64,000 nt of DNA, from assembly GCF_011040385.1 (NCBI RefSeq), contig NZ_JAAIKB010000002.1, positions 248,001 through 312,000 on the forward strand, read 5' to 3'. The DNA is from Falsiroseomonas algicola (lineage in GTDB: Bacteria; Pseudomonadota; Alphaproteobacteria; Acetobacterales; Acetobacteraceae). Positions 3,958 to 15,824 of the stretch are shown in pieces; positions within the stretch are counted from its first letter, which is position 1; each line of letters opens with the position of its first letter. The notes below the pieces were generated by a model. The model was given only the letters and a program-made list of their open reading frames with translations. It searched no databases and had not been told where the DNA came from. A program made the position numbers and the translations under genes.

Positions 3958-4917
3958 TCAGCGTCCCCGCCGGGCCTCGATCGGCGGCAGGAAGTCCGGC
4001 GTGAAGACCTCCGCCGCACCCGGCCGGCGGGGCAGGGACAGCGCCTCGGCCAGCTGCGCGATGCCCTGCGCCAGGCGCGCGGGGTGGGCATCGCCCAGGC
4101 CGAGGATCGCGCCTTCGGGATGCGCCATCTCCCGCGCGATGGTGCCGCGCCAGCGCTTGGTCTCGATCCGCAGGTCGATGGCGGGCGCCACGCGGCGCAC
4201 GGCCTCCACGCCGCGATCGGGGTCCGCCACGGCCGCCGCAAAGCCGCGCGCCACCGCATCGACCAGGGCGCGCAGCACCTCCGGCTCCCGCTCCACCAGG
4301 TGGCGCGACGCCACCAGCGCGTTGCCGTAGAGGTCCGGCAGCCACTGCGCGTAGTCGAGGAAGCGGATCGACCCCGCCAGGTTCAGCCCGGCCCCTTCCA
4401 GGGAGGCGATGATGGTGTTGGCAAAGCCGAAGACGCCATCGGAGGCATCGCCGAGGATCATCTGCCGCACCTGTTCCGCGAGCGTCGCCTCGGAGGGCTG
4501 GATGCGCACCGTGCTGGCATCCAGCCCGACCACGCGCGCCAGTGCCGGGAAGGCGAGCAGCGCGGCATCCCGCGCATGGCCCGTCAGCAGCCGTCCCGCG
4601 AGGTCCGTGGGATGCCGCGCGCCGCCGGCGATGGGTACCGCGATGGTCAGCGGCGTGCGGTTGAAGCCGATGAACACCGCCTGCGGCCCGCTGCCCGGCG
4701 CGCTGTGGCCGAGCCGCATGACCAGGGCGGAAAGGTCGCCATAGGCGAGGTCGCAGACATCCTCCGCCATGTCGGCGATGACGGCGGCCGCGCCATTCCC
4801 GGGCTGCCATTCCGCCGTGATCCCGGCCTGCGCCAGCAGCCCCATCTCCTCCGCCAGCAGGAAGCCGGCATGGGGGCCGGAGAAGCCGGCATTTAGGCGA
4901 ATGCGGAGGCGTCGCAT
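3958..4917 (-). CDS. NMT1/THI5-like (SsuA-type) solute-binding protein, copy 1
   Basis: This 319-residue protein starts RLRIRLNAGFSGPHAGFLLA, the ligand-binding opening of the NMT1/THI5/SsuA fold (LNAGFSGPxA, then DLAYGDLSALV near residue 57). Families of this fold bind pyrimidine precursors, sulfonates, taurine and similar ligands. No signal peptide or lipobox is visible: the fold begins at residue 3. The ATG at 4917 overlaps the stop of the neighbouring paralog in an ATGA arrangement. No ATPase or permease lies nearby. It could be exported by another route, be mis-started, or be a cytoplasmic binding protein or enzyme. Confidence 0.7.
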   Translation of the reverse strand: MRRLRIRLNAGFSGPHAGFLLAEEMGLLAQAGITAEWQPGNGAAAVIADMAEDVCDLAYGDLSALVMRLGHSAPGSGPQAVFIGFNRTPLTIAVPIAGGARHPTDLAGRLLTGHARDAALLAFPALARVVGLDASTVRIQPSEATLAEQVRQMILGDASDGVFGFANTIIASLEGAGLNLAGSIRFLDYAQWLPDLYGNALVASRHLVEREPEVLRALVDAVARGFAAAVADPDRGVEAVRRVAPAIDLRIETKRWRGTIAREMAHPEGAILGLGDAHPARLAQGIAQLAEALSLPRRPGAAEVFTPDFLPPIEARRGR

Positions 4918-5828
4918 CAGGCGTCTCCCAGGAAGCGATCGGTGAAGAGGCGGGCGGGATCGGGCGGCGCCAGGCCGAGGCTGCGCGCGAATCCGGCGCA
5001 GGACCGGGCCAGGCGTCCGTGATCGACGCCACCCGGCCGCGGCGCGGCGGGGCCGGCCATCTCCACGGCCAGTGTCGTCTCCCAGCGCAGGCGCTCCGCG
5101 GCGGCGTTGGCGGCGGGGGCGAAGGACAGCACGGCCTCCATCGCGGCCTCCGGCTCCGCGATCGCTTCCCGCAGACCGCGCGCGAAGCCGGCGGCGAGAG
5201 CCCGCAGCGCCTCCGGCTGCTGCGCCACGACGCGCCGGGAGGCCATGACGACGCTCCCCAGGCTGTCCGGCAGCGCGGCGTCGTAGCGCAGGAAGCGCAG
5301 CGCCCGCGTGGCCTCCGCCCCGATGGCCGCGGTGATGGTGCTGACATAGCCGAAGAGCCCAGCAGCCTCCCCGGCCTGCATCCGGCCGATGAGCGCCGCC
5401 ATCGGCCCCTCCGCCACCGGCACCTCGACGCTGGCGGGATCGAGGCCACAGGCCGCCGCATAGGCGGGGAAGAGATGCCGCGCGACGTCGGAGGCATGGC
5501 CGACGACCCGCCGCCCCGGCAGGTCGCCAGGGCCCGCCACCGGCCCCGCCGCCGGCACCGCGATGGCGCAGGGGGAGGCAGTGTGCACGGCGAAGAAGCC
5601 GATCGGTGCCACCGCCGGTTGCCGCGCGGCCACCGCCATCAAGGAATGGACGTCGCCATAGGCGAGGTCATGCCCGCCCGCGACCAGCCCCGGCGCCGCG
5701 TTCCAGGCGCCGGTCCCCGGCCTGAGGTCCAGCGCGACATCGCCGAGATAGCCCCGCCGGATGGCCAGCAGCAGCCAGGCCTGGGGGCCCGAGAAGCCGG
5801 CATTCAGCAGCAGGGACAGGCGCGGCAT
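4917..5828 (-). CDS. NMT1/THI5-like solute-binding protein, copy 2
   Basis: Start taken at ATG 5828, which gives 303 residues beginning PRLSLLLNAGFSGPQAWLLL and aligns directly with the start of the downstream paralog. Longer in-frame extensions are Arg/Pro-rich and non-homologous. The shared blocks with copy 1 are LNAGFSGPxA, HDLAYGDVHSL, the DLPGR and GHASD region, LFGYVSTITAAIG and LRFLRYDAALPDSLG, so this is a tandem duplication that has diverged. As in copy 1, no secretion signal is visible. It is probably co-transcribed with copy 1. The ligand is unknown. Confidence 0.7.
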   Translation of the reverse strand: MPRLSLLLNAGFSGPQAWLLLAIRRGYLGDVALDLRPGTGAWNAAPGLVAGGHDLAYGDVHSLMAVAARQPAVAPIGFFAVHTASPCAIAVPAAGPVAGPGDLPGRRVVGHASDVARHLFPAYAAACGLDPASVEVPVAEGPMAALIGRMQAGEAAGLFGYVSTITAAIGAEATRALRFLRYDAALPDSLGSVVMASRRVVAQQPEALRALAAGFARGLREAIAEPEAAMEAVLSFAPAANAAAERLRWETTLAVEMAGPAAPRPGGVDHGRLARSCAGFARSLGLAPPDPARLFTDRFLGDA

Positions 5829-5920
5829 GAGCGGTCTTCGGGACCTCGTCATCGGGGGAGGGAAGGCGTGGCACGGGACTGGCATGCAAGGCCCATACCG
5901 AACGCGACGGAGCCGTGCCG

Positions 5921-6886
5921 ATGACCAGCCGCAGGGTCCTTCTGGGTGCCGCAGCCGCGACTCTCGCCGCGCCGGCCTACGCCCAGCCCGCCTGGCCAGC
6001 ACGCCCGGTGCGCATCCTGATCTCCTTCCCGCCGGGCGGGTCGAGCGACTTCGTCGCCCGCGTCATCGCGCCGCAGATGGCGGAGATGTTCGGCCAGTCC
6101 TTCGTCGTGGATAACCGGCCCGGCGCCGGCGGCATGCTGGCGGCGGAGGCGCTGAAGCGCGAACCCGCGGACGGTCACGCCTTCCTGCTGTCCAACAACG
6201 CGCCCTTCACCATCGCGCCGACGATGTTCCCGCGCATCACCTACGACGCGCTGCGCGATTTCTCCCATGTCGCCTATCTCGGCAGCACCTTCGGCGGCGC
6301 GGTGGCGCATCCCTCGCTCGGCGTGCGCAGCCTGGCGGAGCTGGTGGCGAAGGCGAAGGCGGCACCGGGGACGATCAATTTCGGCTCCTCCGGCATCGGC
6401 AGCATCGGGCACATCACGGGGGTGAATTTCTGCCTCCGCGCCGGGATCGACATGGTGCATGTGCCCTATCGCGGGGCGGGGCCGCTGCGCATCGACCTGA
6501 CGACGGGCGTGGTGAAGCTGAACTTCGAGGGCATCGTGAGCAGCCTGCCCGCCATCGCCGCCGGGCAATTGGTGGGCCTTGCCGTCGCCGCGGAGGATCG
6601 CATCCCCGCCGCGCCGGACCTGCCGACCTTCCGCGAGCTGGGCCATGACCTGGTCATCAAGAACTGGCACGGGCTGAGCGCGCCCGCCGGCCTGCCGCCC
6701 GCCATCGCGGATCGCCTGCAACGCGGCCTGGCCGAGATCTGCGCGCGCGCCGCCACCACCGCGCAATTCGCCACCATCGGCAACTACTACGCCCCGATGG
6801 CGGCTGCCGACTTCCCGCGCTTCGTCGCCGACCAGATCGCACTCTGGCGGCCGATGATCATCGCCGCGGATGCGGTGGACAAGTAG
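5921..6886 (+). CDS. Bug/TctC-family tripartite tricarboxylate solute-binding protein
   Basis: The 321-residue protein starts at ATG 5921 (a GTG at 5915 is also in frame). A twin-Arg-like signal peptide (TSRRVLLGAAAATLAAPAYA) is cleaved after AYA. The mature part carries Bug-family hallmarks: WPARPVRILISFPPGGSSDFVAR, VVDNRPGAGGMLAAEA, GTINFGSSGIGSIGH and VHVPYRGAGP. Bug proteins are periplasmic receptors for carboxylates and related solutes, and most genomes hold far more of them than TctAB membrane partners. It lies divergent from the THI5-like pair and stands alone. The first of four related hairpin repeats follows its stop. Confidence 0.9.
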   Translation: MTSRRVLLGAAAATLAAPAYAQPAWPARPVRILISFPPGGSSDFVARVIAPQMAEMFGQSFVVDNRPGAGGMLAAEALKREPADGHAFLLSNNAPFTIAPTMFPRITYDALRDFSHVAYLGSTFGGAVAHPSLGVRSLAELVAKAKAAPGTINFGSSGIGSIGHITGVNFCLRAGIDMVHVPYRGAGPLRIDLTTGVVKLNFEGIVSSLPAIAAGQLVGLAVAAEDRIPAAPDLPTFRELGHDLVIKNWHGLSAPAGLPPAIADRLQRGLAEICARAATTAQFATIGNYYAPMAAADFPRFVADQIALWRPMIIAADAVDK

Positions 6887-6997: not shown

Positions 6998-7762
6998 TCA
7001 CCCAACCCGCCGCACGCCCTGGTCGGCGCCCATCTTCTTCTCCAGCCAGCGCACCGCGAAGGAGATCAGCAGGATCAGCACCAGGTATTCCAGGATGAGG
7101 ATGGTGTAGAGCTCCAGCGGCCGGAACACCGTGACCACCAGCTCATTCGCCTTCCGCGTCAGCTCCTGGTAGCCGATGACGCTGGCCAGCGAGGACATCT
7201 TCACGACGTAGATGAACTGGTTGGCAATCGGCGGCAGCACGCGGCGGATTGCCTGCGGCAGGATGACGAAGCGCATGCGCTGCCAGGGCGACAGGCCGAG
7301 CGCCATCGCCGCCTCCCGCTGCCCCTGTTCCACGGACTGGATGCCGGCGCGGAAGATCTCCGCCTCGAAGGCGCTATCGCAGATCGCGATCGCCAGCATC
7401 GCGGCGACGAAGACGTCGAGCCTGATGTCGAGCACCACCGGCAGCCCGTAGAAGACCCAGAGGATCATCACCAGGATCGGGATGGCGCGGAAAAGCTCCA
7501 CATAGGCGCGGTTGGTCCAGCGCAGAACGCGGTACCGCGCCATGCCCATCATCGCGACGGCCAGGCCCAGCAGCACCGACAGCAGCATGGTCGCCAGGCT
7601 GAGCGAGACCGTCGCCCAGAAGCCCGACAGCATGAAGGAGAGGTTGGCCTGGCCGCGGGAATCCCGGGGATCGACGACGTGCCAACCCCAATTCCCCCCG
7701 CAACCCGCGAGCAGGGGCAGGGCGACGAGCAGAAGGATGGTGGCGCGCGCCTGGAGTTTCAT
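6998..7762 (-). CDS. polar amino-acid ABC transporter permease (HisM/GlnP type)
   Basis: The 254-residue membrane protein has the PAAT permease pattern: a transmembrane start with a lipobox-like LLAGCGG, then FWATVSLSLATMLLSVLLG, YVELFRAIPILVMILWVFYG, the EAA loop EIFRAGIQSVEQGQREAAMALG, and PQAIRRVLPPIANQFI. It forms the inner-membrane channel of an amino-acid-type importer. It is divergent from the binding protein that starts at 7869, and the two probably belong to one transporter. No ABC ATPase is encoded nearby. Confidence 0.9.
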   Translation of the reverse strand: MKLQARATILLLVALPLLAGCGGNWGWHVVDPRDSRGQANLSFMLSGFWATVSLSLATMLLSVLLGLAVAMMGMARYRVLRWTNRAYVELFRAIPILVMILWVFYGLPVVLDIRLDVFVAAMLAIAICDSAFEAEIFRAGIQSVEQGQREAAMALGLSPWQRMRFVILPQAIRRVLPPIANQFIYVVKMSSLASVIGYQELTRKANELVVTVFRPLELYTILILEYLVLILLISFAVRWLEKKMGADQGVRRVG

Positions 7763-7868
7763 GCGATGCGGTGTCCCATCGAATCCCGGCGCACCCGTTG
7801 CACCTGGCCAACCGTTGTCGCACCCTCATCTTTCAAAGCAAGCCCGCTTGCTGCTCAGGAGACCCCCC

Positions 7869-8669
7869 ATGCAACGCCGCTTCCTCCCCGCCGCTGCCGC
7901 GGCCGCCGCTGCCGTGGCGATGCCCGGCCAGGCCAGCGCCCAGGCGGCCGGGGCCTCCCGCCTCCAGGCCATCCAGTCCTCGGGCCGCATCCGCTTCGGC
8001 ACGACGGGCGACTTCAACCCGATGAGCTTCCGCGACCCCGCCAGCCGGGAGTATCGCGGCCACCAGATCGATGCCGGCAACCAGCTGGCCCGCGACATGA
8101 ACGTGCGCGCGGAATTCATCGCGACGGATTGGCGCACGCTCATCAACGGGCTGCAGGCGGACCAGTATGACGTGGTCTTCACCGGCACCTCCATGTCCGT
8201 CCCCCGCGCCATGGCCGCCAGCTTCACCATCCCCTGGGGCCGCAACGCCTTCGTGCCGCTGGTCCGCCGGCGCGATGCCAACCGCTTCGCCAATTGGGAC
8301 GCGCTGAACCAGCGCAACGTCACCATCGGCGTGAACCTCGGCACCACCATGGAGACCTGGGTGCAGTCCGCGCTGCCCGGCGCCACGCTGCGTCGCGTGG
8401 AAAGCCCGGCGCGGGACTGGCAGGAACTGCTCGGCAACCGGGTGGACGCGACCATGTCCTCCCTGATCGAGGCCGCCTTCCTCACGAAGGAATACCCGGA
8501 CCTCGTCGCCATCTTCCAGAACACGCCGCGCAACCCGATCCCGATGGCCTTCCTGGCGCCGGTCAACGACATGGTGTTCACGAACTTCCTCAACGCCTGG
8601 ATCACCATCCGCACCGCCAGCGGCTTCTTCGAGGAGATCAACACGCGCTGGGGCGTGTCGCAGGGGTGA
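7869..8669 (+). CDS. amino-acid ABC transporter periplasmic binding protein (SBP_bac_3)
   Basis: The ATG at 7869 gives a 266-residue precursor with a clear signal peptide (QRRFLPAAAAAAAAVAMP...ASA). The mature part has the SBP family 3 pattern: IQSSGRIRFGTTGDFNPMSF, a GHQIDAGNQLARDM helix, DWRTLINGLQADQYDVV and VTIGVNLGTTMETWVQ. It captures a polar ligand in the periplasm for the divergent permease. The stop overlaps the GTG start of the following Rid gene, suggesting co-translation. The ligand cannot be assigned. Confidence 0.9.
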   Translation: MQRRFLPAAAAAAAAVAMPGQASAQAAGASRLQAIQSSGRIRFGTTGDFNPMSFRDPASREYRGHQIDAGNQLARDMNVRAEFIATDWRTLINGLQADQYDVVFTGTSMSVPRAMAASFTIPWGRNAFVPLVRRRDANRFANWDALNQRNVTIGVNLGTTMETWVQSALPGATLRRVESPARDWQELLGNRVDATMSSLIEAAFLTKEYPDLVAIFQNTPRNPIPMAFLAPVNDMVFTNFLNAWITIRTASGFFEEINTRWGVSQG

Positions 8670-9058
8670 GCCCTCGGCAATCTCACGCCACCGACCGGCC
8701 CTGGGAGGTCGCCTGCGGCTACAGCCGGGCGGTGCGCGTGGGGCCCTATGCGGAGACGGCGCTCTGCAGCCCCTGCGCGCCGGATGGCACGGTGCTGCAC
8801 GCCGGCGATGTCTACCGCCAGACGCTCCTCTGCCTCGACATCATCCGGGAAAGCCTGGAGGCCGTGGGCATGACGATGGCCGATGTGGTGAAGACCCGCA
8901 TCTACGTCGTCGATCCCGAGCATTGGAAGGAAAGCGGCCGCGCGCATGGGGAGGTTTTCTCCACTATCCGCCCTGCGCTCGGCTGGATCTACATGAGCAG
9001 CTTCTTCGCCCCGGGGATCACGGTGGAGGTGGAGGCGACCGCCTACCGCGCCGCATGA
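8666..9058 (+). CDS. RidA/YjgF family protein
   Basis: The start is GTG 8666, overlapping the preceding stop (GTGA), and gives 130 residues. The chain shows the Rid fold: WEVACGYSRAVRVGPYAETA, GDVYRQTLLCLDIIRESLEAVG, MADVVKTRIYVVD and a C-terminal VEVEATAYRAA. Archetypal RidA deaminates reactive enamines and imines with an Arg just before the VEV strand. Here that segment reads FFAPGITVEVEA, so the Arg is absent and the protein fits one of the other Rid subfamilies, with unproven activity. A Rid protein beside an amine oxidase suggests handling of imine products. Its 3' end overlaps the convergent creatininase gene by 16 bp. Confidence 0.85.
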   Translation: MSPRQSHATDRPWEVACGYSRAVRVGPYAETALCSPCAPDGTVLHAGDVYRQTLLCLDIIRESLEAVGMTMADVVKTRIYVVDPEHWKESGRAHGEVFSTIRPALGWIYMSSFFAPGITVEVEATAYRAA

Positions 9059-9831
9059 TCCGGCGCCGCCTGGAACGCCGCGAAGACCTCCGCCACATCG
9101 GCGGTCGCGGCCTCCAGCAGCGCGTGGCCATGCTCGGCCCGGGCCAGCGACGGATCGCTGCCGATCAGCCCATCCGGGAACATCGCGCGGTGGCGCGCCG
9201 CGTCCAGATGCCGGTCGCCGCCGGCATCATGCAGCGGGTCGGCGGGCAGGGGGCGGAAGGTGGGCCAGCCTTCCGGCGCCGCCTCCGGGTGCAGCGCCAT
9301 GGCGATCGCGACCTCGGACGGCGTCGCATGGAAGCCCTCTCGGTCCCCGTACAACGCCCGCCGCAGCCCGATGAGACGCGGCCCCTCCCACCACGCCCGC
9401 AGCTTGACGGTGAGCGGCGCGGGCAGCGCGAGGCGCCCCATCGATACCTCCGCCATCACCTCCTGCACCGCGGCCTGCGCCGGCGCGATGTTCCCGCCAT
9501 GGCCGGTCAGCAACAGTACCCGGGTGAAGCCGCCCAGCGCCAGGCTGGTCATGACATCCACCAGCACGGCCATCAGCGTGGAGGGCCGCAGGCTCGCCGT
9601 CCCCGCCCGCCCCAGATGGAACTGCGCCTGGCCATAGGCCAGCACCGGCGCGCTGACGCCATCCGCCCGCGCCGCCGCGCCATCCGCCACCGCCTGCGCG
9701 CAGATCGCATCCGTCCCCAGCAGCCCCGGCGCGCCATGCTGTTCCAGGCTGCCGAGCGGGAGGATGATGCCCCGCTGGCCCGCGGCGAAGCGCGCCTCCA
9801 GCGCCGAGACGCTCATCCGGTCGAGACGCAT
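9043..9831 (-). CDS. creatininase-family amidohydrolase
   Basis: The ATG at 9831 gives 262 residues starting MRLDRMSVSALEARF; an ATG at 9816 is also possible. Metal-ligand motifs of the creatininase family are visible: LGSLEQHG (Glu, His) followed by LLGTDAI (Asp), TGHGGNIAP, and HATPSEVAIA with the late Glu. The usual HLPL between the first two is replaced by APGLL. Members open cyclic or linear amides such as creatinine or formamides. It is divergent from the FAD oxidase with only 2 bp between start codons, so at least one promoter must lie inside the neighbouring gene. Confidence 0.85.
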   Translation of the reverse strand: MRLDRMSVSALEARFAAGQRGIILPLGSLEQHGAPGLLGTDAICAQAVADGAAARADGVSAPVLAYGQAQFHLGRAGTASLRPSTLMAVLVDVMTSLALGGFTRVLLLTGHGGNIAPAQAAVQEVMAEVSMGRLALPAPLTVKLRAWWEGPRLIGLRRALYGDREGFHATPSEVAIAMALHPEAAPEGWPTFRPLPADPLHDAGGDRHLDAARHRAMFPDGLIGSDPSLARAEHGHALLEAATADVAEVFAAFQAAPDHAAR

Positions 9832-9833
9832 CC

Positions 9834-10997
9834 ATGGACTCCCTGACACGCCGAATCGCGGCACCCCCGCAGGATCGCACGGACCGCCCGCTGCGCATCG
9901 CGGTGGTCGGTGCCGGCATCCTGGGCCTGACCACCGCCTGGGCGCTGGCGCGACGCGGCCACCGGGTGACCGTCCTCGATGGCGGCCTGATCCCCAACCC
10001 CGCCAGTTCCTCCGCCGATGAGGGGCGCATCATCCGTCACGCCTACGGCACCATGGAAGGCTACGCCGCCATGATGCCGGCCGCCTTCGCCGCCTGGCGG
10101 GCGATCTTCGCGGAGACCGGCCAGGACCGCCTGGTGCCGACGCGGGCCATCTATGCGCTGCGGGAGGAGACGCCCTGGCAGGGCGCCGTCGCCCGCACCC
10201 AGGCCTGCCACGGCCTGCCCTTCACGGAACTCGACCCCGCCTCCATCCCCGTCCTCAACCCCGATGGCGTCATCCGCGCCATGGAAGTGGGGGGATCGGG
10301 GATGCTGCTGGCCGCCCCCATCCTGATGGATCTGGTGCGGCTGCTGCCCCGCCTCGGCGCCGACCTCCGCTCCCACACCCATGTCGCCGCCTGCCCCGAA
10401 GGCGGTCCGGTGCTGGCGGATGGCACGCGCGTCGCCGCCGACGCCACGATCGTCGCCGCCGGCGCTGGCGTGCTGACCCTGCTGCCGGAGGCCGCGCGGC
10501 GCTTCGGGCTGCGGGCGTCTCTGCAAACCGTGGCCTATCTGGGACCGCCGCCAGGGTTGTGGGAGGAGGCGCCGATGCTGCTCTGCCGGCTGCCTGGGCA
10601 CCCGACCGGCGGCGTCTATGTGCTGCCGCCTCGGGCGGGCACGCGGCTCAAGATCGGGGATTACGACACCTCCCTCACCGTCGATCCCACCGCACCGCGC
10701 GATCCGCCCCGGGCCTCGCGCGTCGCCGCGCTGCTGGATGCCGGCGCCCGCGCCATCGCGGGCTTCGACCGCTACCGCCTGATCGCGGCGCGCCACTGCC
10801 TCTACACCATGGCGCCGGGGGACCGTTTCGTGCTGCGCCCCGTCGCCCCCGGCGTGACGCTCGCCAGCGCCTGTTCCGGCCATGGCTTCAAGCTGGCGCC
10901 GCTGATGGCGTTGGGCCTCGCGGCGGCGGTGGAGGGACACGTGACGCGCGAGGAACTCGCGCTCTGGGCTGGCGGCCACGCCGCTTCCGACGGATGA
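9834..10997 (+). CDS. DAO-type FAD-dependent oxidoreductase
   Basis: The 387-residue protein has the FAD-binding start RIAVVGAGILGLTTAWALARRGHRVTV at about 21-47, then SSSADEGRIIRHAYG, a DAO family cofactor and substrate region, and a C-terminal GVTLASACSGHGFKLAPLMALGLA. Family members (sarcosine or N-methyl-amino-acid oxidases, D-amino-acid oxidases) oxidise a C-N bond with O2 or an acceptor. It precedes the 2OG oxygenase by 22 bp on the same strand, so it is likely in the same operon and acts on the same imported compound. The N-terminal 20 residues may not be translated. Confidence 0.9.
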   Translation: MDSLTRRIAAPPQDRTDRPLRIAVVGAGILGLTTAWALARRGHRVTVLDGGLIPNPASSSADEGRIIRHAYGTMEGYAAMMPAAFAAWRAIFAETGQDRLVPTRAIYALREETPWQGAVARTQACHGLPFTELDPASIPVLNPDGVIRAMEVGGSGMLLAAPILMDLVRLLPRLGADLRSHTHVAACPEGGPVLADGTRVAADATIVAAGAGVLTLLPEAARRFGLRASLQTVAYLGPPPGLWEEAPMLLCRLPGHPTGGVYVLPPRAGTRLKIGDYDTSLTVDPTAPRDPPRASRVAALLDAGARAIAGFDRYRLIAARHCLYTMAPGDRFVLRPVAPGVTLASACSGHGFKLAPLMALGLAAAVEGHVTREELALWAGGHAASDG

Positions 10998-11019: not shown

Positions 11020-12003
11020 ATGTCCTATGCGACCGCGAAGCCGATCGCCGTCAGCGAGATCCCCGTCATCGACATCGCCGGCCTGGTGGCGGGCGACCCC
11101 GCAGCCAGCGCCGCCGCTGGCCGCGCCATGCGGGAGGCCAGCGAGCGCATCGGCTTCTTCTACGTCGCCAACCACGGCATTCCCCAGGCGCTGATCGACA
11201 GCGTCTTCGCCCGCGCACGGGACTTCTTCGCCCTGCCGGAGGAGGCGAAGGCCGCGGTGAAGGTGAACAAGCGCCACCGCGGCTGGATCGGCCATGGCGG
11301 CGCGAAGATGTATACGGGCGCCAAGGTCGATCTGAAGGAAAGCTTCGTCTTCGGCCTCGAATTGCCGGAGGATGATCCGGAGGTCGCCGCCGGCACGCCG
11401 CTGATGGGCCCGAACCAGTGGCCCGAAGCGCTGCCCGCGCTGCGCGACACCGTCTATCCCTATTACGAGGCGGTGCTCGGGCTCGGCCAATCCGTGCTGC
11501 GCGGGCTCGCCTTGAGCCTCGGCCGCGATGCCGGCTTCTTCGCGGAACGCTTCGCCCGTCCCTTGGCGCGCGGATCGCTCATCTGGTACCCGCCGCAGCC
11601 GCCCGACCTCGGCCAGGACCAGTTCGGCGTCGCGCCCCACACGGATTACGGCGGGCTGACCTTCCTCTACCAGGACAATACCGGCGGGCTGCAGGTGCTG
11701 AACGCCGCGGGCGAATGGGTCATGGCGCATCCCATCGAGGGCACCTTCGTCGTCAATATCGGCGACCTCATGCATCGCTGGACGAATGACCGCTTCCATT
11801 CCAACCCGCATCGCGTGGTGAACACCTCCGGCCGCGCGCGCCAGAGCCTCGCCGTCTTCTACGATCCCGGCTTCCACACCGTGGTCGATCCGCGCGACCT
11901 GCTGGACGATCCCACGCAGGCGAAGCACGCGCCCGTGGCCTGCGGGGAATGGGTGGTGGGCCGCTTCGACAAGGCCTTCCGCTACCGGGCGCCGACGGGC
12001 TGA
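11020..12003 (+). CDS. 2-oxoglutarate/Fe(II) oxygenase, isopenicillin-N-synthase-like
   Basis: The 327 residues contain the DIOX_N opening (IPVIDIAGLVAGDP, GFFYVANHGIPQALID) and the double-stranded beta-helix core. The iron triad is visible as APHTDYGG (His207, Asp209) and NPHRVV (His264). RARQSLAVFY supplies the probable 2-oxoglutarate Arg and Ser. The family couples decarboxylation of 2-oxoglutarate to hydroxylation or related oxidations in the cytoplasm. A good RBS (GAGGAG) precedes the ATG. The next gene, 8 bp later, is an HD-domain protein, and the pair resembles PhnY/PhnZ and TmpA/TmpB, although PhnY itself belongs to the phytanoyl-CoA-hydroxylase branch. Substrate unknown. Confidence 0.9.
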   Translation: MSYATAKPIAVSEIPVIDIAGLVAGDPAASAAAGRAMREASERIGFFYVANHGIPQALIDSVFARARDFFALPEEAKAAVKVNKRHRGWIGHGGAKMYTGAKVDLKESFVFGLELPEDDPEVAAGTPLMGPNQWPEALPALRDTVYPYYEAVLGLGQSVLRGLALSLGRDAGFFAERFARPLARGSLIWYPPQPPDLGQDQFGVAPHTDYGGLTFLYQDNTGGLQVLNAAGEWVMAHPIEGTFVVNIGDLMHRWTNDRFHSNPHRVVNTSGRARQSLAVFYDPGFHTVVDPRDLLDDPTQAKHAPVACGEWVVGRFDKAFRYRAPTG

Positions 12004-12011
12004 CCCTGGCG

Positions 12012-12623
12012 ATGGCGGCGGACCGTTCCCCCCTGCTTCAGCCGGATTGGCGCTATGTCGAGGCCCCGAGCCTCGATGCCTTCCAGCGCGCCGATTGGGA
12101 CCTGCTGGCTCGCCAGCGCCGGGTCTTCGATGCCGGGCAGCAGGCCGCCCATGCGCTGCGCCTGCTGGAATCGACCGCCGCCGATCCCGGCTTCGGCTAC
12201 CAGGTGAACAACTACCGTCACAGCCTGCAGGCCGCGACGGCGGCGCTGCAGGATGGGCGGGACGAGGAATACGTCGTCGTCACCCTCTTCCACGATGTCG
12301 GCTTCACCATCTGCCCGACCAGCCACGGCGCCTTCGCCGCCGCCATGCTGGCGCCCTATGTCAGCGAGGCCAGCCGCTGGATCCTGGAACGCCACCAGAT
12401 CTTCCAGGCCCATCACTGCCACGACCATCCGGATGAGGCGGTGGACCCGGATGCCCGCGAACGCTGGCGCGGCCACCAACACTTCGCCGCCACGGCGGAG
12501 TTCGTGGAGCGCTACGACATCACCACCATCGCCGCCGGCCTGCCGGAGGCGCCGCTCTCCGTCTTCGCCCCCATGGTCGCGCGCATCCTGGCGCGCCCGC
12601 CACGGCGCCTGCACCTGCCGTGA
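12012..12623 (+). CDS. HD-domain protein, PhnZ/TmpB-like candidate diiron oxygenase
   Basis: ATG 12012 gives 203 residues. The chain shows an HD ligand series: NNYRHSLQAAT (His70), TLFHDVGF (His94, Asp95), PTSHGAFAA (His105), ERHQIFQAHHC (His128) and FVERYDI (Asp169). The order H...HD...H...H...D matches the mixed-valent diiron HD oxygenases PhnZ and TmpB, which cleave a hydroxylated C-P bond after a 2OG enzyme hydroxylates it. The RYD element near the last ligand also recalls PhnZ. Ordinary HD phosphohydrolases remain possible. Its stop overlaps the GTG of the following permease. The upstream 2OG oxygenase is 8 bp away. Confidence 0.75.
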   Translation: MAADRSPLLQPDWRYVEAPSLDAFQRADWDLLARQRRVFDAGQQAAHALRLLESTAADPGFGYQVNNYRHSLQAATAALQDGRDEEYVVVTLFHDVGFTICPTSHGAFAAAMLAPYVSEASRWILERHQIFQAHHCHDHPDEAVDPDARERWRGHQHFAATAEFVERYDITTIAAGLPEAPLSVFAPMVARILARPPRRLHLP

Positions 12624-13432
12624 GGCCGCCGCCCGCCGCGGCGCGATGGCAGGGCCGCCGCCGCGCCCTGCTCGACCTCGCCCAATTCGCGCTCTTTGCC
12701 GGGGCGCTGGTCTGGCTGGTCGTCTCCGGCGCGGCGGGCATGGGCTACAACTGGCAATGGCAGCGCGTGCCGCGATACCTGTTCCAGGTCTTCGAGGGCG
12801 AGTTCTTCCCCGGCCCCCTGCTGATGGGCCTGGTCGTCACGCTGGAGATCAGCGCCATCGCGCTGCTGCTGACCATCATCATCGGCCTCGGCGCCGCGAT
12901 CCTGCGGCTCTCGGGCTCCATCGCCGGGCGCTGGATCGTGCTCGCCTATGTCGAGGCCATCCGCAACACGCCGCTGCTGGTGCAGCTCTACATCGTCTAT
13001 TTCATCCTGGCCCCGATCCTCGGCATGGACCGCTTCTGGGCCGGCGTGCTGGCGCTGGCGATCTTCGAAGGCGCCTTCGCCGCCGAGATCTTTCGGGGTG
13101 GGATCCAGGCCGTGCGCCTCGGGCAATGGGAAGCCGCATGGACGCTGGGTCTTTCCCGCGCCCAGGCCTATCGCCTGGTGGTGCTGCCCCAGGCCTTGCG
13201 CGTGATCCTGCCGCCGCTCGCCGGGCTCGGCGTGTCGCTGATCAAGCACTCCGCCATCGTCAGCGTCATCGCCATCTTCGACCTGACCAATGAAGGCCGG
13301 AACGTCATCAGCGACACCTTCATGACCTTCGAGATCTGGTTGACCGTCGCCGCGCTCTATCTATGCGTCACGGTCACGCTGTCGCTCGCCGTGCAGGGGC
13401 TGGAACGCCGGCTGCGCGGCACCGCCGCCTGA
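12620..13432 (+). CDS. polar amino-acid ABC transporter permease
   Basis: The start is GTG 12620, overlapping the HD gene stop (GTGA), giving 270 residues. Membrane segments include LLDLAQFALFAGALVWLVV and MGLVVTLEISAIALLLTIII. The PAAT motifs are YVEAIRNTPLLVQLYIVYF, the EAA loop EIFRGGIQAVRLGQWEAAWTLG and PQALRVILPPLAG. It forms half of an inner-membrane channel with the permease at 14302, served by the binding protein between them. Translational coupling to the HD gene ties the transporter to the oxygenase pair. No ATPase gene is present. Confidence 0.92.
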   Translation: MRPPPAAARWQGRRRALLDLAQFALFAGALVWLVVSGAAGMGYNWQWQRVPRYLFQVFEGEFFPGPLLMGLVVTLEISAIALLLTIIIGLGAAILRLSGSIAGRWIVLAYVEAIRNTPLLVQLYIVYFILAPILGMDRFWAGVLALAIFEGAFAAEIFRGGIQAVRLGQWEAAWTLGLSRAQAYRLVVLPQALRVILPPLAGLGVSLIKHSAIVSVIAIFDLTNEGRNVISDTFMTFEIWLTVAALYLCVTVTLSLAVQGLERRLRGTAA

Positions 13433-13456: not shown

Positions 13457-14302
13457 ATGGGTTGGATCACGAGACGCTTCCTGGCCCCCGCCGCCGCGGC
13501 CGGCGCCGCGGTGTCCATCACCGGCACGGCGCAGGCACAGGGCGCCGATGCCCGCGCCGCGCTGGCCGCGTCCTCGGTGATCGAGGAGATCAAGCGCCGC
13601 AACACGCTGCGCGTCGGCATGTCCACCTTCGTGCCCTGGGCCTTCCGCAACCGCGCGGGGGAGCTCATCGGCTACGAGATCGACGTCGCGACGCGCCTGG
13701 CGCAGGATATGGGCGTGCGGCCGGAATTCGTCCCCACCGCCTGGGACGGCATCGTCCCCGCGCTGCTGGCCGGGCGCTTCGACATGATCATTGGCGGCAT
13801 GACGGTGACGGCGGCGCGCAACCTCTCCGCCAACTTCACCAATTCCTACTCCGCCTCCGGCGTGGACCTCGCCGCCAGCAAGCGCCTGGCGGAGGGCATG
13901 GTCACGATGGAGGCCTGGAACCGCCCCAACGTCACCATCAGCGGCCGCCGCGGCACCTCGGCGCTGGCCGCCGCGCAGCGCCTCTTCCCCCGCGCGACTT
14001 TCCGGCAGTTCGACGACGATGCGCAATCCATCCTGGAAGTCGTGAACGGCCGCGCCCATGGCATGGTCGGCTCCATGCCCCGCCCGCGCTTCGCGGTGCT
14101 GGAGAATGAGGCCGCGTTGTTCAGCCCCTTCCCGCAGCCGCTCGCCCGCCAGATCGACAGCATGGCGGTGCGCAAGGGCGACCCGGATGCGCTGAACTTC
14201 CTCAACAACTGGATCGCGTCGCGCCAGCTCGACGGCTTCCTGGAGGAACGCCAGGCCTACTGGTTCCAGAACCGCGAATGGCGGGACCAGGTCCCGGGCT
14301 AA
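13457..14302 (+). CDS. amino-acid ABC transporter periplasmic binding protein (SBP_bac_3)
   Basis: The 281-residue precursor has a signal peptide ending near GTAQAQ at residue 28. Family-3 motifs follow: EEIKRRNTLRVGMSTFVPWAF, LIGYEIDVATRLAQDMGV, AWDGIVPALLAGRFDMIIGG and VTISGRRGTSALAAAQRLF. It delivers a polar ligand to the flanking permeases. An AAGAAGGAGA Shine-Dalgarno sits just upstream. The stop overlaps the next ATG (TAATG). It is a distant paralog of the protein at 7869 and probably has a related ligand. Confidence 0.92.
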   Translation: MGWITRRFLAPAAAAGAAVSITGTAQAQGADARAALAASSVIEEIKRRNTLRVGMSTFVPWAFRNRAGELIGYEIDVATRLAQDMGVRPEFVPTAWDGIVPALLAGRFDMIIGGMTVTAARNLSANFTNSYSASGVDLAASKRLAEGMVTMEAWNRPNVTISGRRGTSALAAAQRLFPRATFRQFDDDAQSILEVVNGRAHGMVGSMPRPRFAVLENEAALFSPFPQPLARQIDSMAVRKGDPDALNFLNNWIASRQLDGFLEERQAYWFQNREWRDQVPG

Positions 14303-15204
14303 TGAACCGTCCAGGAGGTCCTTTCGCGCGGGGCACCCCGCGCTTCGGCCTGCTGGACGCTGCCCTGCTGGCGATCGTCGTCGGCGCGCTGGGCTTCCTC
14401 GCCTGGCGCGCCGGCGCGGCGCTGGACTATCGCTGGAACTTCGGCCCCGTGCTGGGCTTCGTGGCGCGGCAGGATGCCTCCGGCGCCTGGGTCGCGAACC
14501 TGCTGCTGCAGGGCGTGATGACGACGCTCCGCGTCTCCTTCTGGGCGGCGATCGTCGCCGCCGTGGTCGGCACGCTGATGGGCATCGCGCGCAGCGCGAC
14601 GGCGCTGCTGCCGCGCCTCATCGCCGGCGCCTATGTCGAGACCATCCGCAACATCCCGCCCCTGGTCTTCATCTTCGTCTTCTACTTCTTCGTCACCGCG
14701 CAGATTGTCCCCGCGCTCGGCATCGAGGACTGGATCCGGCGGCAGGACGCGGAGACGCTGCGCCTGATTGGCTGGTTCTTCGGCCCGCCCCAGCAGGCGG
14801 CCGGTGTCATCGCCGCCATCCTCTGCCTCGGCCTTTTCGAGGGCGCCTATGTCGCGGAGATCGTGCGCGCCGGCATCCAGTCCCTGCCGCGCGGGCAGTG
14901 GGAGGCCGGGCAGGCGCTCGGCCTCTCGCGCCTCCGGCTGTTCCGCCTGGTGATCCTGCCCCAGGCCGTGGCGCGCGTGGTGCCGCCGCTGGCGGGGCAG
15001 GGGATCAGCCTGGTGAAGGACAGCTCCATCATCTCCCTCGTCTCCATCCAGGATCTGAGCTTCCTGGGCGCCGAGGTCGCCGCCACGACGAACCGGGTCT
15101 TCGAGACCTGGCTCATCGTCGCGCTCTTCTACTTCATCATCTGCGCCCTGCTCTCCGCCGCCGCCGCGCGGCTGGAACGGCGCTTCGCCCAGAGGACCAC
15201 ATGA
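14302..15204 (+). CDS. polar amino-acid ABC transporter permease, second subunit
   Basis: ATG 14302 overlaps the preceding stop and gives 300 residues. PAAT permease features: WVANLLLQGVMTTLRVSFWA, YVETIRNIPPLVFIFVFYFF, the EAA loop EIVRAGIQSLPRGQWEAGQALG, PQAVARVVPPLAGQGISLV. An insertion of about 40 residues with EDWIRRQDAETLRLIGWFFG lies between membrane segments, as in the longer permease of GltJ/GltK-type pairs. It pairs with the permease at 12620. The following AhpD-like gene overlaps its stop. Confidence 0.92.
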   Translation: MNRPGGPFARGTPRFGLLDAALLAIVVGALGFLAWRAGAALDYRWNFGPVLGFVARQDASGAWVANLLLQGVMTTLRVSFWAAIVAAVVGTLMGIARSATALLPRLIAGAYVETIRNIPPLVFIFVFYFFVTAQIVPALGIEDWIRRQDAETLRLIGWFFGPPQQAAGVIAAILCLGLFEGAYVAEIVRAGIQSLPRGQWEAGQALGLSRLRLFRLVILPQAVARVVPPLAGQGISLVKDSSIISLVSIQDLSFLGAEVAATTNRVFETWLIVALFYFIICALLSAAAARLERRFAQRTT

Positions 15205-15824
15205 CCGACGAGACCAACCCCGCCTGGATCCGCCTGGTGCCCTACGACGAAAGCGAGGGCTACCTGCGGACGCTCTATGACCGCGTGAAGGGCCCGGGCG
15301 GCAAGATCGACAACGTGATGCGCGCCCACAGCCTGCGGCCGCACACGATGGAAGGGCACAGCGCGCTCTACAAATCCGTCCTGCACCACACCGGCAATTC
15401 CATGCCCGTCTGGTTCCTGGAATGCCTGGCCGTCTACACCAGCCTGTCGAACCGCTGCGACTATTCCGTGGCGCACCACTTCGCCGGCCTGTCGCGGCTG
15501 CTGAAGGACGAGGCCCGCGCCGGTGCCATCTACAAGGCCTTCGCCGCGGCCCAGCCGGAACGCGTCTTCGACGGCAAGGAACTCGCCCTGCTGCGCTACG
15601 TCCGCAAGCTGACGCTCGACCCGCAGGGCATGGTGGAGGCCGACATCGCCGCGTTGCGGGAGGCGGGCGCCAATGACGGGGAGATCCTGGAGGCCAACCA
15701 GGTCTGCGCCTACTTCAACTACTCCAACCGCCTGCTGAACGGCCTCGGCGTCACGACGGCCGGGGACATCCTCGGCACCTCGCCGCCCAACACCGATTCA
15801 CTCGACGATTGGGAACACCACTGA
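15201..15824 (+). CDS. carboxymuconolactone decarboxylase/AhpD-like protein
   Basis: ATG 15201 overlaps the permease stop and gives 207 residues. The core helix reads PVWFLECLAVYTSLSNRCDY followed by SVAHHFAG near residue 80. The AhpD redox motif is normally Glu...Cys-x-x-Cys...His; here the Cys of NRC is followed three residues later by Ser, so only one cysteine of the pair remains along with the His pair. The family includes peroxidase partners, decarboxylases and uncharacterised peroxidase-related enzymes. Placement at the end of the transport/oxygenase operon suggests a role in the same pathway. Its stop is followed by a 12-bp hairpin repeat. Confidence 0.8.
   Translation: MTDETNPAWIRLVPYDESEGYLRTLYDRVKGPGGKIDNVMRAHSLRPHTMEGHSALYKSVLHHTGNSMPVWFLECLAVYTSLSNRCDYSVAHHFAGLSRLLKDEARAGAIYKAFAAAQPERVFDGKELALLRYVRKLTLDPQGMVEADIAALREAGANDGEILEANQVCAYFNYSNRLLNGLGVTTAGDILGTSPPNTDSLDDWEHH

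Follow-up and report, generated by a model that had tools for sequence, protein, structure and literature searches.

The consecutive use of an iron(II)- and 2-oxoglutarate-dependent (2OG) oxygenase and an HD-domain protein is a route known in four versions, and those described in the excerpted text of a 2023 paper act on phosphonates (PMC10574752). An excerpt of a 2020 review names only three HD oxygenases and outlines how the known enzymes work: the substrate binds at Fe1 and O2 at Fe2, a hydrogen is abstracted, the C–X bond is cleaved and the site returns to Fe(II)/Fe(III) (PMC8177086). Here we describe a related gene pair in a window of DNA from Falsiroseomonas algicola, by which we mean the whole analysed stretch of 64,000 nucleotides. 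The gene for a 2OG oxygenase that resembles isopenicillin-N synthase (IPNS) and the ethylene-forming enzyme (EFE) (11020..12003, plus strand) is followed by the gene for an HD-domain protein (12012..12623, plus strand, 203 amino acids); we propose the former as the hydroxylase of step 1 and the latter as the diiron oxygenase of step 2. On balance we favour the reading that the operon degrades an imported, probably N-methylated amino-acid-like compound by hydroxylation and subsequent O2-dependent cleavage of the adjoining bond by the HD protein. The bond that the pair cuts in this compound is probably a C–C bond. Judged by its sequence, the HD protein belongs to an undescribed branch that lacks the residues usual in the phosphonate enzymes, and no description of this HD family or of the pair appeared among the titles and abstract openings listed in searches of an open-licence library.

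Ligands, fold and family of the HD protein

For the comparison we assembled 102 unique HD proteins from 103 loci, comprising the window, 42 loci from named genomes, 6 plasmid loci and 54 loci from genomes of the same family or class, the last taken with about 8 kb of flanking DNA where the contig allowed. HD matches occur in 32 of 397 genomes of the family and in 109 of 385 sampled genomes of the class (E ≤ 1e-10 for the class). The metal ligands of the window protein are H70, H94-D95, H105, H128 and D169, the last within an RYD element, exactly as numbered in a preliminary description of this DNA. H70, H94, D95 and H105 are invariant in all 102 homologues, and H128 and D169 in all 101 that reach these positions, one being truncated; all six are also invariant across 79 aligned sequences.

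Residue 67, three positions ahead of the first His, divides the family. It is Arg in 69 members and another residue in 33 (N 25, M 6, I 1, A 1), with N67 in the window. When we rooted the tree on 25 PhnZ-type proteins (clade support 1.0), defined as TIGR03276 matches at E ≤ 1e-20 and including some under the cut-off of that model, the Arg group (69 tips) and the non-Arg group (32 tips) came out as sisters; the non-Arg clade has a support of 0.85, and the truncated L013 was left out. Two further positions follow the same division: position 98 is D in 69/69 Arg members, F in 25/33 non-Arg members and H in 23/25 PhnZ-type proteins, and position 135 is Y in 64/69, H in 31/33 and L in 23/25, respectively.

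A single-sequence search of solved structures, up to E 1, returned only PhnZ (three sequences) and TmpB, at E 0.001–0.003. The profile of 86 family members found PhnZ at 1.4e-15 and TmpB at 2.5e-13 in the PDB and nothing else below E 0.05; its weaker matches were Lmo0812 (0.05), a Cas10 (0.076) and myo-inositol oxygenase (MIOX; 0.15 and 0.34). Conversely, the NCBIfam PhnZ-type (TIGR03276) and TmpB (NF049941) models match 85/86 family members at E ≤ 0.01, with best values of 7.1e-15 and 1.7e-11, and the PhnZ1 model matches 74/86 at the same threshold. The MIOX family PF05153 reaches 15/86 members (best E 3.9e-05), the window protein not among them; for the latter, no Pfam family gives a match at 0.01. 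An AlphaFold2 model built from 79 sequences was obtained with a mean predicted local distance difference test score (pLDDT) of 95.2 and a predicted template modelling score of 0.89. At E ≤ 0.001 the model has ten fold matches in the PDB, each of them to PhnZ or TmpB and with probability 1.0, and two MIOX chains match at probability 0.98 (E 0.2 and 0.5). The suggestion in the preliminary description that the protein is built like PhnZ and TmpB is thus borne out for fold and ligands; the YxxE substrate loop of these enzymes, in which induced fit takes place, is missing.

We also considered that the HD protein could be a diiron or other phosphohydrolase, similar to the diphosphatase YqeK, that stands in the operon for another reason. 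YqeK indeed shares the H..HD..H..H..D motif, and in the excerpt of the review HD phosphatases are described with a conserved Arg three residues ahead of the first His (PMC8177086), which the sister clade retains in 69/69 members. In the window the six ligands are shared with YqeK but this Arg is absent, as it is in 33/33 members of the window's clade. Moreover, among the best 50 of 166 fold matches a glycyl-tRNA synthetase reaches probability 0.51 and the hydrolases all stay at or below 0.47, compared with 1.0 for PhnZ and TmpB. With PhnZ and TmpB alone significant in the profile search as well, profile and fold searches both disfavour a phosphohydrolase, and we regard this identity as improbable.

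The proximity to PhnZ and TmpB, both in fold and through the two NCBIfam models that recognise nearly the whole family, could in turn mean that we are dealing with a divergent phosphonate pair of the PhnY/PhnZ or TmpA/TmpB type. However, the window protein remains far under the curated cut-offs, with 25.9 vs 214.6 bits for TIGR03276 and 23.3 vs 300 bits for NF049941. The residues typical for PhnZ-type proteins (n = 25; Y60 in 24, E63 in 17, K132, R133 and R166 in 25 each) are all absent in the window, which has G60, Y63, Q132, A133 and E166. Across the family of 102, K132 is never found, R133 occurs in 4 and R166 in 3 proteins, and neither Y60 nor E63 is present in any of the 33 non-Arg clade members. 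A single protein (L135) has the complete YxxE where the loop of PhnZ lies, and it keeps Arg67 as well. Additionally, the same genome encodes a separate PhnZ-type HD protein (L163, contig C11, 208384-208911) that scores 214.9 bits against the cut-off of 214.6, and the transporter of the operon is of the amino-acid type. Because the YxxE loop and the invariant K, R and R are lost and the genome has its own PhnZ-type gene, we judge a phosphonate substrate to be very improbable, in line with the earlier proposal of a different substrate.

Conservation of the 2OG and HD gene pair

The 2OG protein starts with ATG, has 327 amino acids and matches Pfam DIOX_N and 2OG-FeII_Oxy above their cut-offs; no NCBIfam match was found. 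Its residues H207, D209, H264 and R274-Q-S276 were located as expected, and H207/D209/H264/R274/S276 (HxD..H, RxS) are kept in all 20 HD-linked 2OG proteins, window included. In fold, the model (pLDDT 87.3) comes nearest to the IPNS-like 6jyv from Pseudomonas aeruginosa and to 9ovh, which is an ancestral EFE. These are its closest solved relatives, 39-43% identical in the fold alignment, and they place the protein in the DIOX_N type; with the EFE of Pseudomonas it shares about 22% identity.

Of the non-Arg loci, 20/33 have an IPNS/EFE-like 2OG gene no further than 9.5 kb from HD, compared with 0/69 Arg loci. The picture is the same when only loci with 6 kb or more to either side are counted (13/19 vs 0/47). 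The joint conservation of the two genes, which the preliminary description had made a point to be checked, is thus found within one clade of the family; of the two outcomes that this description had named as refuting, a hydrolase-like model of HD and a lack of conservation of the pair, neither was observed. All 20 linked loci fall into one subclade of 26 (support 0.98), and the pair is on the same strand in 19 of them; the remaining 6 non-Arg tips, outside this subclade, have no linked IPNS-like 2OG gene. With five PF03171 matches in the 6.56 Mb genome of the window, the expected chance that any one gene has such a match no further than 9.5 kb away is about 1.4%. The HD and 2OG distances correlate across the 20 loci (r 0.85), which common ancestry alone could produce.

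The two oxygenases might instead work in one pathway on separate intermediates, rather than sequentially on one carbon. In this direction point the six subclade genomes in which the 2OG gene stands apart from HD: they carry it elsewhere, with 51-54% identity to that of the window, and hence 26/26 genomes possess such a protein. Five of these six split 2OG stretches include a window-type DAO gene, and three have family 3 solute-binding protein (SBP3) and permease genes of the same kind. There are also CMD-2OG stretches in which no HD gene is detectable (L263, L267 and L269, while L264 ends at the contig end), meaning that HD is not obligatory for the CMD-2OG module. In L107 and L108, on the other hand, HD stands with HisC and DAO genes and without a linked 2OG gene. 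What speaks against separate intermediates is that the 2OG gene is found within 2.2 kb of HD in 18/33 non-Arg loci, in varying order, that eight HD genes of the sister clade adjoin a 2OG gene of another kind, and that known 2OG and HD pairs act in sequence according to the excerpted paper (PMC10574752). We therefore consider this alternative unlikely and continue with sequential action on one carbon.

Besides the motif shared with YqeK, the phosphatase-like Arg of the sister clade, the missing YxxE loop and the HD-free CMD-2OG stretches, several further points weigh against the sequential reading. The TM-scores of the HD model against PhnZ and TmpB are only moderate (0.58-0.63 by query length). 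The pair is not linked in 6/26 members of the subclade, and the 2OG-then-HD order stressed in the preliminary description did not hold: HD follows 2OG in 11 of the 20 loci and precedes it in 9. Related genomes are non-independent samples that inflate the counts. Finally, the Arg clade is undersampled, since the family and class searches give the loci of best matches, at most 30 each.

A wider look concerned the phylum, as a check only, and plasmids. Phylum-wide, 59/398 genomes have an HD match at E ≤ 1e-30; among 29 loci beside the window, 28 carry Arg67 and one was not read by the residue pattern. IPNS-like 2OG genes were found in 0/29 of these loci, and L217 has a gene similar to gamma-butyrobetaine hydroxylase (BBOX) on a short stretch. 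HD matches occur in 15 plasmid records, of which 6 were examined, and four of these six are annotated; the neighbourhoods are heterogeneous, IPNS-like 2OG genes are present in 0/6, and L125 has a TauD/TfdA gene. In a Pseudomonas locus (L029, 7526-7936) the Arg-clade HD gene comes after the gene of a small membrane protein, which by eye we take to be DUF962/Mpo1-like. The DUF962/Mpo1 family is linked elsewhere to 2-hydroxy-fatty-acid oxidation.

The sister clade has 2OG neighbours of its own. TmpA/BBOX-like 2OG genes adjoin HD in 8/69 Arg loci (L112, L129, L132, L133, L134, L138, L139 and L140), and a TauD-like match no more than 9.5 kb away was seen for another three Arg members. The NCBIfam TmpA model is itself related to gamma-butyrobetaine dioxygenase models. 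In L112, L132 and L134 one TmpA/BBOX-like gene stands on each side of HD: in both L134 and L112 one flanking gene has its best score with the gamma-butyrobetaine model and the other with the TmpA model, although under the cut-offs, and the layout of L132 is the same by eye and BLAST. L132 also contains a carnitine 3-dehydrogenase above cut-off (654.7 vs 592) 4-5 kb away and a GbdR-like regulator below cut-off. For Arg loci of this type a role in the trimethyllysine-to-carnitine route is possible. The HD family thus stands beside at least two 2OG families, IPNS/EFE-like in one clade and TmpA/BBOX-like in its sister, which agrees with the earlier view that different 2OG branches were recruited. 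With eight Arg members next to TmpA/BBOX-like genes, the use of Arg at this position as the sole divider between hydrolases and oxygenases is weakened.

Proposed chemistry and the surrounding operon

The genes that recur around HD in the non-Arg clade give the clues about the substrate. Transporters of the SBP3/HEQRo type are present in 20/33 non-Arg vs 2/69 Arg loci, and DAO, SoxA, SoxB or Rieske genes in 18/33 vs 5/69. CMD genes within 9.5 kb of HD are found in 16/33 vs 0/69, creatininase-like genes in 11/33 vs 0/69, and Rid and HisC-like aminotransferase genes in 9/33 vs 0/69 each. In 9/33 HD loci, window included, the DAO type that scores highest is that of the window. Together this suggests an N-methylated amino acid as substrate, and the proposal of an amine- or amino-acid-like compound made in the preliminary description gains support from the same recurring genes. 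The amino acid is perhaps derived from histidine, and the proposed chemistry is independent of that detail. The lead comes from HutU and HutH matches in 3/33 non-Arg loci (L011, L013 and L114), both above cut-off in L114.

In these three loci, CMD, HD, 2OG or creatininase-like genes abut HutU and HutH; a CMD ortholog lies between the hut genes in L011 and L013, and L114 also shows HutI- and HutF-like genes by eye. Two CMD loci without HD have hut genes as well (L268 with HutU and HutH, L269 with HutH). CMD alone is no marker, since among 20 separate CMD stretches an HD match was found in 0/20 and no hut match in 18/20. In L263, L264 and L269, SBP3 transporter genes and creatininase-like genes stand with the CMD and IPNS-like 2OG genes. 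A protein of about 360-370 amino acids without Pfam match is encoded nearby in L263 and L269; for this protein beside the 2OG gene a 2,5-dihydroxypyridine-dioxygenase-like identity was considered and found no support. An ectoine pathway was considered because of a DoeB-like gene in L104 and L106 and was set aside, as it concerns 2/33 loci only and L104 is below cut-off.

In the first step, as its family suggests, the IPNS/EFE-like enzyme would hydroxylate the C–H position beside the bond to be cut. To judge by its fold, its ligands and its pairing with 2OG, the HD protein would then chelate the new alcohol and a neighbouring group at a mixed-valent Fe(II)/Fe(III) site and use O2, in analogy to known HD oxygenases, to cleave R-CH(OH)-X to R-COOH and X-OH. 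X would most likely be carbon and not phosphorus, either a vicinal amino-carbon or a carboxylate. For X = CH(NR)COOH the second product could break down to glyoxylate and an amine or imine, an outcome for which Rid would be suited, and for X = COOH the product would be CO2. DAO, Rid and the creatininase-like protein presumably process the nitrogen-bearing parts. As a tentative extension, somewhat doubtful in our view, the HD family as a whole may perform O2-dependent C–C cleavage of hydroxylated amino acids after a 2OG enzyme; the substrate of the window clade would be an N-methylated amino acid, perhaps one derived from histidine, and the TmpA/BBOX-adjacent sister members would convert 3-hydroxytrimethyllysine into gamma-butyrobetaine without an aldolase.

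The layout is that of an operon with the plus-strand order DAO, 2OG, HD, permease, binding protein, permease and CMD/AhpD-like protein. Upstream of 2OG is the DAO-family flavoprotein (9834..10997, plus), which is N-methyl-L-tryptophan/sarcosine-oxidase-like; it matches Pfam DAO above cut-off and NF008425 with 124.8 bits, under the equivalog cut-off of 257. The HD gene most likely starts at ATG 12012, 8 bp past the 2OG stop, and ends with its stop at 12621-12623; an alternative start at 11949, from a longer listed open reading frame, would overlap the 2OG gene. The GTG of the first HEQRo-type (polar amino acid) ABC permease (12620..13432, plus; TIGR01726 above cut-off) overlaps the HD stop as GTGA. 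Next come the family 3 solute-binding protein (13457..14302, plus; PF00497 above cut-off), a second HEQRo-type ABC permease (14278..15204, plus; TIGR01726 above cut-off) and the CMD/AhpD-like peroxidase-related protein (15201..15824, plus; TIGR01926 above cut-off). The Rid/L-PSP family protein (8666..9058, plus; PF01042 above cut-off) has a GTG start, placed by hand from the sequence, that overlaps the stop of the preceding binding protein in a second GTGA coupling. The 8 bp spacing, the coupling of HD to the permease, and the DAO and Rid genes upstream were all found as first described; a creatininase-family amidohydrolase (9043..9864, minus; PF02633 above cut-off), situated between Rid and DAO and divergent from the latter, had not been named before.

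Further upstream, a second binding-protein and permease set (6998-8669) is arranged divergently and kept in close relatives. It consists of a family-3-like binding protein (7869..8669, plus), whose family is assigned through its BLAST match with the other binding protein, and a third, divergent ABC permease (6998..7762, minus; PF00528 above cut-off). A search with a single query detected no ATPase up to 9.5 kb from HD. On the minus strand at 3958-6002 we noticed two adjoining genes that by eye are ABC/NMT1 substrate-binding-like; they are kept beside the operon in close relatives, as relatives of the first gene match both places in L003 and L004 (the second match with 40-43%). The named relatives nearest to this locus come from Acetobacteraceae, namely a metagenome-assembled genome, Roseomonas ponticola and Falsiroseomonas stagni (HD 87-91%).

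Comparison with described systems

In summary, we describe a widespread HD family that among solved structures reaches only PhnZ and TmpB significantly, together with a residue-level discriminator (Arg/Asn at 67, Asp/Phe at 98, Tyr/His at 135) for its clades. The operons offer a ready route to finding the substrate. If our reading is true, 2OG-then-HD chemistry is a more general means of bond breaking.

MIOX is likewise a diiron HD enzyme and, as the excerpted review has it, cuts a C–C bond and has no 2OG partner (PMC8177086). Its relation to the window protein is weak, given the profile and fold values above, despite the fold match at probability 0.98. The trimethylaminoethylphosphonate system TmpA/TmpB follows the same two-gene logic of 2OG and HD, and TmpB is among the top fold matches. 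However, the TmpA model is related to gamma-butyrobetaine dioxygenase, while the window 2OG protein is of the DIOX_N type, and the TmpB loop is absent in the window. PhnY*/PhnZ, acting on 2-aminoethylphosphonate, shares with the window the pairing of 2OG and HD, the HD fold and the six diiron ligands, and PhnY presumably belongs to another 2OG branch than the window protein. In contrast to PhnZ, the window protein has no YxxE loop, carries Q132, A133 and E166 in place of K, R and R, and is set in the context of an amino-acid transporter and an amine oxidase.

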